Part shown: positions 37,136-57,559 of the stretch, piece after piece
Layout of the letters: the number at the start of each line of letters is the position of its first letter
How positions within the stretch are numbered: the stretch's first letter is position 1
NCBI RefSeq assembly: GCF_030160075.1
Contig: NZ_BSNQ01000009.1
Coordinates: 554,295-618,294, forward strand
Origin: Dyella lipolytica
GTDB lineage: Bacteria; Pseudomonadota; Gammaproteobacteria; Xanthomonadales; Rhodanobacteraceae
Length of the DNA stretch: 64,000 nucleotides
Direction of reading: 5' to 3'
The notes under the pieces: generated by a model
Database searches by the model: none
Told to the model about the DNA's origin: nothing
What the model saw: the letters and a program-made list of their open reading frames with translations, nothing else
Program-made: the position numbers and the translations under genes

Positions 37136-37144
37136 GATTAACTT

Positions 37145-37346
37145 CTCCCCTTCGGGGAGCACGCGGAGAGTGACCATGGATGGTCACGGCTTTGGGGAGC
37201 GAGGAAGGTGGCCCGAAGGGTCGGATGAGGGGCCAGCCTCGCGAGGTGCTGATCTGCGAAAAAGATCAGCGGCAAAACCTTTCCGACAAACAAACTCCAT
37301 CGCAAGAATGACCCCTCACCCCAACCCTCTCCCCGAAGGGGAGAGG
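37145..37346. repeat. Palindromic intergenic repeat cluster (REP/BIME-like)
   Basis: This stretch holds hairpins CTCCCC-TTC-GGGGAG (37145-37159), GTGACCAT-GG-ATGGTCAC (37170-37187) and CCTCTCCCC-GAA-GGGGAGAGG (37326-37346). The 35-nt unit at 37312-37346 agrees at 34 of 35 bases with 55784-55818 inside lpd. A degenerate inverted copy (GGGTCGGATGAGGGG) lies near 37219. It fills the gap between convergent pilU and maiA and may act as a terminator or RNA-end stabiliser. Confidence 0.8.
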
Positions 37347-37361
37347 TAGAAATGCGAGTAT

Positions 37362-54232: not shown

Positions 54233-56074
54233 TTATTTTTTCTTGGGCATGTACAGATCGGTGATCGTGCCTTCGTAGACTTCGGCCGCCATGCCCACCG
54301 ATTCGCTCAGCGTCGGATGCGGATGGATGGTCATGCCGATATCGGCGGCTTCGCTACCCATCTCGATGGCGAGCGCGATCTCGGAAATCAGATCGCCTGC
54401 ATGTGGACCGATGATCGCACCGCCGACCACCCGATGGGTTTCTTCGTCGAACAGCAGCTTGGTGAAGCCTTCGGTGCGGTCGATGCCGATGGCGCGGCCG
54501 CTGGCCACCCACGGGAATTTGCCGACGCCGATCTTCAGACCCTTTTCCTTCGCTTCGCGCTCGGTTACGCCAACCCATGCCACTTCCGGATCGGTGAAGG
54601 CGACAGACGGAATGACGCGCGCATCGAAGTAGCTCTTCATGCCGGCGACGACTTCCGCCGCGACGCGTGCTTCGTGCGTGGCCTTATGCGCCAGCATCGG
54701 CTGACCGACCAGGTCGCCGATGGCAAAAATGTGAGGCACATTGGTGCGCATCTGCGTGTCGACGTTGATGAACCCGCGTTCGGTCACTGCTACACCGGCC
54801 TTGTCTGCGCCAATCTTGTTGCCGTTGGGCGAGCGGCCCACGGACACCAGTACGCGATCAAACACATTTGTGGCGGGAATGCTGTCGCCTTCGTAGCTGA
54901 CTTCGATGCCTTTCTTGGTGGCCTTCGCGTCGACCACTTTGGTCTTGAGGTGCGCACCCTTGAGCTTGCCGCCCAGGCGCTTGGCCAGCGGTTTGATCAG
55001 ATCGGCGTCGGCGCCGGGGATCAACTGGTCCATGAATTCGACGACAGTCACTTCGCTGCCGAGCGCGGAATACACGGTGGCCATTTCCAGGCCGATGATG
55101 CCGCCGCCCACGACCAGCAGCTTGGCCGGCACGTCCTTCAATTCAAGTGCTCCGGTGGAATCGACGATGCGCTCGTCGTCCCACGGGAATGCGGGCAGTT
55201 TCACCGATTGCGAACCCGCGGCGATGATGGCGTATTCGAAGCGGATCAGCTTCTTGCCTTCGGCCGTTTCGACTTCCATCTCGTTCGGCGAGACGAATGT
55301 ACCGACGCCCTGCACAGTGCGCACTTTGCGCTGCTTGGCCATGCTGGCGAGGCCGCCGGTGAGCTGGCCGACCACCTTGGTCTTGAAGCTGCGTAGCTTG
55401 TCGATATCGATCTTGGGTTTGCCGAAGCTGACGCCGTGCGCAGCCATGGCTTCGGCTTCGTCGATCACTGCCGCCGCATGCAGCAGCGCTTTCGACGGAA
55501 TGCAGCCGACATTGAGGCAGACACCACCGAGTGCGGCGTAACGTTCCACCAGCACGGTATCGACACCGAGATCGGCAGCGCGGAAGGCGGCGGTATAGCC
55601 ACCCGGACCGGAACCAAGCACGACGAGTTTGCACTCGATATCGGCGGCTCTTCCAGATAGAGCCGCCGCTTGCGGCACCTTCGTTTCCTCTCCCCTCCGG
55701 GGAGAGGATTGAGTTGAGGGGGCGGGGCTCGCGGGTGATTGGCTAGTGCCACTCGCAATAGCGGGAGCACCTGGCGAGGTTGCCCCCTCACCCCGACCCT
55801 CTCCCCGAAGGGGAGAGGGAGTATCGGCTTCGGCGGAAGTTTCGAGTACGGCGATCACCGCACCTTCGGAAACCTCATCGCCCACTTTGAGCTTGAACTC
55901 TTTGATCACGCCGGCAGCGCTGGAGGGAATCTCCATCGTCGCCTTATCCGATTCCAGTGTGATCAGGCTTTGTTCTTTTTCGACTTTGTCGCCGACTTTC
56001 ACCAGCACTTCGATCACCGGCACATGGTCGTGACCGCCGATGTCGGGGACTTTCACTTCGATCGTGTTCGCCAT
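54233..56074 (-). CDS. lpd: Dihydrolipoamide dehydrogenase (E3) with N-terminal lipoyl domain
   Basis: The protein has 613 residues. A lipoyl domain covers about 1-80 (lipoyl Lys44 in ESDKATME). A linker (about 81-145) follows, then the FAD/NAD disulfide oxidoreductase: GSGPGGYTAAFRAADLG, redox pair GGVCLNVGCIPSKAL, the NAD site VVGGGIIGLEMA and the catalytic His-Glu of HPHPTLSE near the C-terminus. It reoxidises dihydrolipoamide of pyruvate dehydrogenase. Linker residues 86-130 are encoded by a palindromic repeat (55687-55818). The gene follows aceF by 12 nt. Confidence 0.95.
   Translation of the reverse strand: MANTIEVKVPDIGGHDHVPVIEVLVKVGDKVEKEQSLITLESDKATMEIPSSAAGVIKEFKLKVGDEVSEGAVIAVLETSAEADTPSPLRGEGRGEGATSPGAPAIASGTSQSPASPAPSTQSSPRRGEETKVPQAAALSGRAADIECKLVVLGSGPGGYTAAFRAADLGVDTVLVERYAALGGVCLNVGCIPSKALLHAAAVIDEAEAMAAHGVSFGKPKIDIDKLRSFKTKVVGQLTGGLASMAKQRKVRTVQGVGTFVSPNEMEVETAEGKKLIRFEYAIIAAGSQSVKLPAFPWDDERIVDSTGALELKDVPAKLLVVGGGIIGLEMATVYSALGSEVTVVEFMDQLIPGADADLIKPLAKRLGGKLKGAHLKTKVVDAKATKKGIEVSYEGDSIPATNVFDRVLVSVGRSPNGNKIGADKAGVAVTERGFINVDTQMRTNVPHIFAIGDLVGQPMLAHKATHEARVAAEVVAGMKSYFDARVIPSVAFTDPEVAWVGVTEREAKEKGLKIGVGKFPWVASGRAIGIDRTEGFTKLLFDEETHRVVGGAIIGPHAGDLISEIALAIEMGSEAADIGMTIHPHPTLSESVGMAAEVYEGTITDLYMPKKK
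55687..55818. repeat. REP-like palindromic repeat pair inside lpd
   Basis: Two hairpins in inverted orientation, CCTCTCCCC-TCC-GGGGAGAGG (55687-55707) and CCTCTCCCC-GAA-GGGGAGAGG (55798-55818), flank a 90-nt core. The right unit (55784-55818) differs from 37312-37346 by one base in 35. The whole is 132 nt, a multiple of three, so the lpd frame stays open and encodes a linker. Confidence 0.85.
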
Positions 56075-56086
56075 GATCGTTCCCCG

Positions 56087-57442
56087 TCAGAGCAGCAGGC
56101 GACGGATGTCGCCGAGCTGGGTGGCAAGGAAGGAGGCGAAGCGCGCGGCGAGTGCGCCGTCGATTACGCGATGGTCGTAGCTGAGCGACAGCGGCAGGAT
56201 CAGCCGCGGCGCGAATTCCTTGCCGTTCCACACCGGCTTGGTCTGCGCCTTGGAGACGCCGAGGATCGCCACTTCCGGCGCGTTGACGATCGGCGTAAAC
56301 GCGGTGCCGCCGATGCCGCCGAGCGAGGAGATCGAGAAGCAGCCGCCGGACATATCGTTCGGACCGAGCTTTTTGTCGCGCGCCTTCTTGGAGATTTCGC
56401 CCAGTTCGACAGCAAGATCCAGCAAACCTTTCTTGTCGCAGTCGCGAATCACCGGCACCACCAGGCCATCGGGCGTATCCACCGCGATGCCGATGTGGAA
56501 GTACTTCTTGAGAATCAGCTTCTCGGTGCTCTCATCCAACGATGCATTGAATTGCGGGAATTTCTTCAGCGCCGCGACCACCGCCTTGATCTGGAACACC
56601 AGCGGGGTGATCTTGAGGTCCTTGTTCTCTTCGCCGAGCTTCTTGCGGAAGGCTTCCAACTCGGTGATGTCGGCATCTTCGTGCTGGGTGACGTGCGGAA
56701 TCATCGCCCAGTTGCGCGCGAGGTTGGCGCCGGAAATTTTCTGGATGCGCGACAGCGGCTTCTCTTCGATCTCGCCGAACTTGGCGAAATCGACCTTGGG
56801 CCACGGCAGCAGATTGAGGCCACCCGCCGAGGCAGCGGCACCCGACACGGGGCGTGCACCGGAAGCGAGCGCATGCTTGACGTAAGCCGTGACGTCCTCG
56901 CGCACGATGCGGCCACCGCGGCTGCTGCCCTTCACCTGCTGGATATCCACACCCAGCTCGCGCGCGAAGGCACGGATGGCGGGGCTGGCATACGGTGCAT
57001 CGCCCGGCATGACGAGCTTGGCGTCGAACGGCGGGCGTGCCTGGGGCGACGCATCGCCTTCCGGCGCATTGCCGGGAAGCACGCTGCGGCCGCCCAGCGG
57101 GATCGGCTCTTCCTTTACCTCGGGTACCTTTGCGGGTGCCGGTGCCGGCGCGGGAGCTGTCGCGGCCGGAGCCGGGCTGGGCGCTGCAGCTACTGCGCCA
57201 TCGGCCGCCTCGATAGTGGCAATGAGGGCGCCTTCCGATACTTCGTCGCCCACTTTGAGCTTCACTTCCTTGACCACACCGGCGAAGGGCGCGGGCACTT
57301 CCATCGTGGCCTTGTCCGACTCCAGGGTGATCAGGCTCTGGTCCTTTTCGACCCTGTCACCGGGTTTGATGAGCACCTCGATGACGGGCACATCGGCGTT
57401 GCCGCCGATATCAGGGACGCGGGCTTCTTTGAGGTCGGCCAT
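56087..57442 (-). CDS. aceF: Pyruvate dehydrogenase E2, dihydrolipoyl acetyltransferase
   Basis: The protein has 451 residues. One lipoyl domain is at the N-terminus (lipoyl Lys in [12 protein letters not shown]), then a Pro/Ala linker (about 85-125), a peripheral-subunit binding domain ([28 protein letters not shown]) and the catalytic domain with [15 protein letters not shown]. It transfers the acetyl group to CoA. The start is ATG at 57442, with AGGAGA upstream. E. coli E2 has three lipoyl domains; here one is on E2 and one on E3. aceE (E1) is not in the window. Confidence 0.95.
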
Positions 57443-57559
57443 GATTTCTCCTGCAGAGCGAAGGGCGGCCACGCTGGGGAGGCGGAGGCGGCCGCAAGGC
57501 TTCCATCATAGCAACCGGCACCCGCTACGGACATGCCGAATGGGCCCGAAAAGGCCATG

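Follow-up and report, generated by a model that had tools for sequence, protein, structure and literature searches.

An in-frame REPIN-like element in the interdomain linker of dihydrolipoyl dehydrogenase in Dyella lipolytica and its relatives

The window analyzed here is a 64,000-nt stretch of contig C9 (NZ_BSNQ01000009.1) in the 4.05-Mb genome of the soil bacterium Dyella lipolytica. It contains lpd (54233..56074, minus strand), which encodes a 613-residue dihydrolipoyl dehydrogenase (E3) that scores above the family cut-off of TIGR01350. The protein has the layout of the lipoyl-domain dihydrolipoyl dehydrogenases, with an N-terminal lipoyl domain (Biotin_lipoyl, residues 6-77), a linker and the E3 domain (Pyr_redox_2, 149-469; Pyr_redox_dim, 488-596); its nearest full-length chain of known structure is 5u25, and p64K (1ojt/1bhy) matches the flavin part. 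Upstream of lpd lies aceF (E2; 56087..57448, minus strand; Pfam 2-oxoacid_dh, E3_binding and Biotin_lipoyl), which has an ordinary linker in this genome. Among the named matches listed, lpd is closest to its counterparts in a MAG labelled Lysobacterales (96%) and in Dyella dinghuensis (90%). The Lpd linker is predicted to be flexible from its composition and from a poor AlphaFold model (21-row alignment, mean pLDDT 56), in which residues 81-135 have pLDDT values below 50 and no secondary structure.

A two-armed palindromic (REPIN-like) element of 138 nt, located by covariance-model hits at 55684..55821 (minus strand), occupies this linker in frame and encodes approximately residues 85-130. On the lpd transcript, the first arm (55783..55821, plus strand; 64.9 bits, E = 6.6e-14) is of the C-type, with a C-G outer stem pair, and encodes PSPLRGEGRGEG, and the second arm (55684..55722, minus strand; 59.5 bits, E = 1.9e-12) is of the T-type, with a T-A outer stem pair, and encodes STQSSPRRGEE. 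These E-values come from a one-genome search in which both arms, found at 610077-610115(+) and 609978-610016(-) of the contig, were themselves among the 12 arms, all from this genome, used to build the model. The 60-nt middle that separates them (55723..55782, minus strand) consists of Ala, Ser and Pro codons and has diverged from the middles of the intergenic two-armed copies. The palindrome is no chance product. The coding-strand fold of 55680-55830 has an energy of -97.5 kcal/mol vs -60.2 +/- 4.7 for shuffled sequences (z -7.9, with 0 of 200 shuffles as stable), and the left arm is the inverted partner of the 35-mer at 55784-55818, with mismatches at 5 of 35 positions. An earlier note on this DNA had described a block at 55687-55818 as 132 nt long, frame-keeping and coding for Lpd residues 86-130, and had claimed that the 35-mer differs by one base from 37312-37346; we verified the coordinates and found exactly one difference, and its core observation, that a REP-type element encodes the linker between the lipoyl and flavin domains in frame, stands. 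The intergenic counterpart is a C-type arm of the same repeat family (37311..37349, plus strand; 63.9 bits with the covariance model), and a probable degenerate long-form partner arm with an extra inner hairpin, recognized by eye and missed by the model, lies at 37140..37240 (minus strand).

A genome-wide count, proposed in the earlier note, revealed that the repeat is abundant and that the lpd copy is a standard one. The covariance model (39 positions) gave 128 hits in the window genome at E <= 0.01, from which eleven opposite-strand overlaps were dropped by hand. The remaining 117 arms form 80 clusters, namely 36 inverted pairs (all -+, and no +-), one ++ pair and 43 single arms. The lengths of the 36 pairs are 134-139 nt in 22, 179-185 nt in 10 and 146-157 nt in four, and their outer-stem types are C/T in 23, C/C in 11, T/T in none and other combinations in two; with its 138 nt and C/T arms, the lpd copy is typical of the family. 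Of the 10 long pairs, 8 matched a 45-nt inner hairpin module within one of their arms, as did the UvrD copy described below. The stem sequence of this inner hairpin varies within the window genome while remaining largely complementary, and its loop is ATGGAT-like. The family shares with REPs and REPINs a short palindrome in many, mostly extragenic copies (four clusters were recognized within conserved genes, and the others were called by ORF length and by eye) and inverted doublets with a preferred spacing, the 134-139-nt class. The element is also frequent in many genomes of Dyella and Rhodanobacter. At a permissive threshold, Rfam returned only seven matches, all to microRNA or snoRNA families and far under the gathering scores.

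A repeat-flanked RAYT (Y1) gene, as in REP/REPIN systems, was not found for this family: none of the 30 Y1-transposase loci scanned, out of 44 PF01797 matches in 16 genomes, is flanked by the lpd-type repeat; the mobilising enzyme may be encoded at a distance or be of another kind. By eye, two near-identical Y1-type transposase genes of the window genome (on contigs C6 and C9) adjoin GGGGTCAG-type repeats, which are different from the lpd repeat. On one contig of another member of the genus there are 18 Y1-transposase matches, 16 of them with 152-residue frames of near-equal score, a picture suggestive of a recently expanded insertion sequence. A GTAG/CGTC tag at the stem end was absent, by eye, among the conserved columns of two arm alignments; in one of these, the two rows from the window are shifted by one base and have gaps at their ends.

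We listed the ORFs across every cluster and examined eleven selected ones. In the window genome, in-frame element pairs are present in three further conserved genes, encoding HrpA (assigned by TIGR01967), UvrD (NF008743 and TIGR01075) and a helicase matching NF010338/NF007284, which we take to be Lhr-type; the helicase fragments of ~310-320 residues submitted to NCBIfam scored below the whole-protein cut-offs. Judged from the open frames of Lpd, HrpA, the Lhr-type helicase and UvrD, the palindrome appears to be kept within conserved ORFs, in the manner of the Rickettsia palindromes discussed below (RPEs). Many other repeat-spanning ORFs were judged by eye to be antisense or spurious, and an ORF with a single arm at C9:1063390 is possibly PhnH-like. 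Among 16 genomes of the genus, at least two arm words are found at the Lhr-type site in 10, at the HrpA site in 9 and at the UvrD site in 8, with one more UvrD site N-masked and one unresolved. The genome nearest to that of the window shares its UvrD and Lhr-type copies and lacks the HrpA copy. At the repeat site, the Lhr-type gene of a distant genome has a short loop of 29 residues between motifs, and the HrpA loop is 38 residues long in one genome of the same family and in one of the same order. Long HrpA loops of 107, 117 and 108 residues without the repeat were found in three other genomes; therefore this loop varies in length, and the repeat is one of the sequences that can fill it. Motif-based loop reading gave no result for 8 of 28 HrpA loci and for 7 of 25 Lhr-type loci (five without any hit, one misread). 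Long arms occur at the Lpd site in one genome, at the Lhr-type site in four and at the UvrD site in two, the window genome and its nearest relative being among the four and making up the two, and at the HrpA site in one; short and long arms at the same coding site differ by 45 nt, that is, 15 codons.

Related arms were also observed elsewhere. In one genome, the HrpA loop contains tandem arm-derived peptides, with SPSPLRGELPH repeated, suggesting from the sequence an amplification within the coding region. A pattern search of 80 loci found four Rhodanobacter loci whose aceF (E2) linker contains a related in-frame arm at the post-lipoyl position (at ~1500-1900 of each locus); two of them also match the covariance model. 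At twelve loci of relatives, an arm belonging to the lpd repeat family lies in the aceF-lpd spacer, ~80-90 nt before the lpd start.

To compare linkers across relatives, lpd loci were drawn with six peptide patterns, and since one of these sits within the window genome's own linker, repeat linkers may be over-represented in the sample. It was built from 80 named loci, of at least 566 confirmed, minus six Xanthomonas loci, one fragment and two loci whose linker was not excisable (one of them with model hits), and from 30 loci of 41 further genomes, of which 8 were used, twelve duplicated named-locus genomes and ten, all plain, were left out. A linker was scored as repeat-type if it contained a covariance-model match at E <= 0.05, and the lpd tree was computed without the linker for 79 genes, two of which were then excluded because they were decayed or unclear. 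The protein tree of 77 rows (33 repeat, 44 plain) has 24 state changes, a number without shuffle control. The DNA tree omits 16 distant rows and comprises 63 (Rhodanobacteraceae and close MAGs); the 62 scored among them (29 repeat, 33 plain) show at least 22 changes, compared with a mean of 20.8 (range 15-26) over 200 label shuffles. Because the observed changes are no fewer than the shuffled ones, there is no detectable phylogenetic signal in the lpd state in this sample. Opposite states are found in the sister species R. fulvus and Rhodanobacter sp. Root480, D. japonica and D. kyungheensis, and D. acidisoli and D. nitratireducens. Model hits, with their own arm flavour, are also present in the linkers of four distant Lysobacterales MAGs.

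Measured from the lipoyl GDxV to GxGPGGY, the median linker is 85 residues in the 29 repeat rows and 66 in the 33 plain rows, and in 22 disjoint repeat/plain pairs the median excess of the repeat linker is 14 residues (range -1 to 34). The clean presence or absence of a 132-nt block that the earlier note had envisaged is not borne out by this median, as a clean insertion of 135-138 nt would add 45-46 residues. Dyella sp. C9 retains a plain-like stretch beside the element, and R. spathiphylli and FW104-R8, scored as repeat-type, have a plain linker with one weak arm. These lengths would fit insertion followed by trimming. No empty target site or target duplication could be defined, since at lpd the element stands in for a portion of the original linker. 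Repeat linkers are rich in Ala, Pro, Ser and Gly and almost devoid of aromatic residues. The arm peptides in the Lpd frame, PSPxRGEGxGEG and PSPQxSPxRGEE, are hydrophilic and appear unlikely to fold.

Repeat linkers tend to favour repeat-rich genomes. Arms were counted with strict filters in 69 genomes, including one duplicate record, and the load test used 62 of them (six genomes and the duplicate were left out); the highest counts are at least 96, and up to two of the arms in a count are those of lpd itself. The median number of arms per genome is 74 with a repeat linker (n = 29) vs 23 with a plain one (n = 33), a difference with a one-sided Mann-Whitney p of 0.001 when kinship is ignored. 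Of 22 nearest repeat/plain pairs on disjoint tree paths, 17 have the higher arm count on the repeat-linker side and 5 on the plain side (one-sided sign test, p 0.008). With load divided into two classes at its median, an independent-pairs test was not significant, and cannot reach significance with these pairs: over 15 starred pairs, an average of 2.4 point in the same direction, 0 in the opposite one and 12.6 have no load-class difference.

Several explanations for these linkers have to be weighed. In 17 species with the commonest arrangement, differences at fourfold degenerate sites amount to 10.9% in the first arm (123/1126) and 19.0% in the second (133/701, the second arm of one locus being probably misplaced), vs 30.3% in the flavin domain (9733/32169) and 33.7% in the lipoyl domain (1639/4857). 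The first-arm value is below the 5th percentile (13.6%) of 152 flavin-domain windows of 12 codons and inside their range (minimum 4.7%). Together with the very stable fold and with C-G to T-A double changes at one stem pair in 9 of 32 rows, the only covarying pair of the arms, the contrast between first arm and flavin domain would suit selection on the hairpin itself, as an mRNA or DNA structure (attenuation, mRNA stability or a gyrase site) with the peptide as a by-product. However, low first-arm divergence is predicted alike by hairpin selection, by recent arrival and by overwriting by genomic copies, some flavin-domain windows are equally conserved, and the double change concerns one pair and could represent two inherited arm types. 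Furthermore, 33 of the 62 rows do not have the element and D. flava has kept the linker while its hairpin decayed, and we regard selection on the hairpin as quite improbable. The finding of both short and long arms at one and the same coding site would favour overwriting, the 45-nt step preserving the frame.

It is likewise unlikely that a single old insertion in the ancestor of Dyella and Rhodanobacter was domesticated and inherited vertically, with the plain linkers as later losses: several repeat linkers do have a common ADTASPSP-like junction and a KAPQAAASSGK-like right flank, and the stem-to-stem span is 132, 117 or 102 nt in 15 of 22 two-stem Rhodanobacteraceae linkers, but the state changes are no fewer than with shuffled labels, sister species differ, and there are repeat linkers whose flanks are plain-type, whose arms use other frames or which, in Dyella sp. 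C9, retain a plain remnant. Spread between species by homologous replacement, through a short lpd stretch or the aceF lipoyl domain, seems rather doubtful. The lipoyl domains of lpd and aceF are 73% identical over 228 nt in the window genome, and the aceF arms of the four Rhodanobacter loci occupy the corresponding place in the same frame; against this, in 13 windows covering both flanks of the linker, lpd genes of the same state have no excess similarity (smallest p 0.17), and as flank distances carry no state-linked signal, lpd allele exchange is not demonstrable. Repeats are error-prone in assembly and some copies in these genomes are represented by N, and the earlier note had named an assembly error as a possible refutation. 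Such an error is unlikely because separate genome records of other species hold the element at the same lpd site, and with an intact frame of ~600 residues there, an assembly or annotation artefact or a pseudogene is extremely improbable.

The explanation that we consider probable is that a REPIN-like element is tolerated in disordered protein segments and turns over with its genomic population, rather than having been domesticated once. The lpd block would be a copy of a non-autonomous element of two inverted ~39-nt arms, ~60 nt apart, that is tolerated where the protein is already disordered or variable in length, as in the Lpd lipoyl/flavin linker and the HrpA, Lhr-type and UvrD loops. Since the hydrophilic arm peptides are unlikely to fold, an in-frame copy would do little harm in such a stretch. 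Copies may come and go by insertion and deletion, and their arms may be overwritten by conversion from genomic copies. The linker would remain a working flexible tether throughout, so that selection would mainly maintain frame and disorder. The architecture of the element, its in-frame place in four conserved genes, the lpd state changes, the load association and the 45-nt arm differences are direct observations. A stronger form, which we offer tentatively, is that genomic repeats continually rewrite protein sequence: elements would enter disordered parts of conserved enzymes and then have their arms overwritten from other copies, the frame-neutral 45-nt switch included, with linkers evolving in concert with the non-coding repeats and following copy number and not the species tree.

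The earlier note had read the block as a REP domesticated as a swinging-arm linker. The REP-type nature, the reading frame and the linker location hold, but a special event in lpd is not supported, as three helicases share the element; the flips of lpd state between sister species and the tendency of this state to go with genomic repeat load also count against domestication. Nothing in the analysis points to an advantage of the repeat peptide over an Ala/Pro linker, and the repeat linker may have a fixed function in some lineages. The system amounts to a natural replicated experiment in which non-coding mobile repeats turn into protein: in dozens of related species, the same linker of an otherwise conserved enzyme is made either of Ala/Pro codons or of a palindromic repeat. 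Comparing these two versions allows one to examine if the sequence of the linker has any importance apart from its disorder, and if copying from one genomic site to another maintains the repeats.

In the extracts of Bertels and Rainey 2011 (PMC3116915), a REPIN is an inverted REP doublet with fixed spacing that forms a hairpin and replicates as a non-autonomous unit. The lpd element resembles it as a hairpin-forming inverted doublet at a preferred spacing (PMC3116915), and differs in that no RAYT gene adjoins the repeat at the scanned loci, some copies lie in conserved genes and there is also an arm form longer by 45 nt. The parts of Di Nocera 2013 (PMC3733652) on intragenic REPs describe REP dimers within ORFs, often in DNA repair and helicase genes, including UvrD/REP and RNA helicases, and, for two Xanthomonas species, different REPs at nearly matching positions in recB. 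Those REP dimers in UvrD/REP and RNA helicase ORFs are close to our helicase copies; by contrast, the tags of the GTAG/CGTC super-families, as given in those parts, are not seen in the lpd repeat family. The same parts name no lipoyl-dehydrogenase linkers and do not treat turnover or load. In our searches of open-access papers we recognized no REP in a lipoyl-dehydrogenase linker, although Additional file 3 of PMC3733652 may hold one, and found no report of recurrent turnover of a repeat within one enzyme's linker. These intragenic REPs, including those in UvrD/REP helicase genes (PMC3733652), weaken the earlier note's suggestion that an in-frame REP would be novel, whereas its comparison with Rickettsia is supported. 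As described in extracts of PMC10969869 and PMC3733652, RPEs are palindromes of ~150 bp, found in frame in genes of unrelated function and presumably tolerated by the protein. As in lpd and the helicases, in-frame palindromes there lie within unrelated genes (PMC10969869, PMC3733652); on these descriptions, the likeness is one of in-frame placement. The Dyella element belongs to another host lineage, its sites flip across a family and its presence tends to go with repeat load. The class of phenomenon is known, and what we consider new is that a repeat element has repeatedly taken the place of one enzyme's linker, in association with genomic repeat load.
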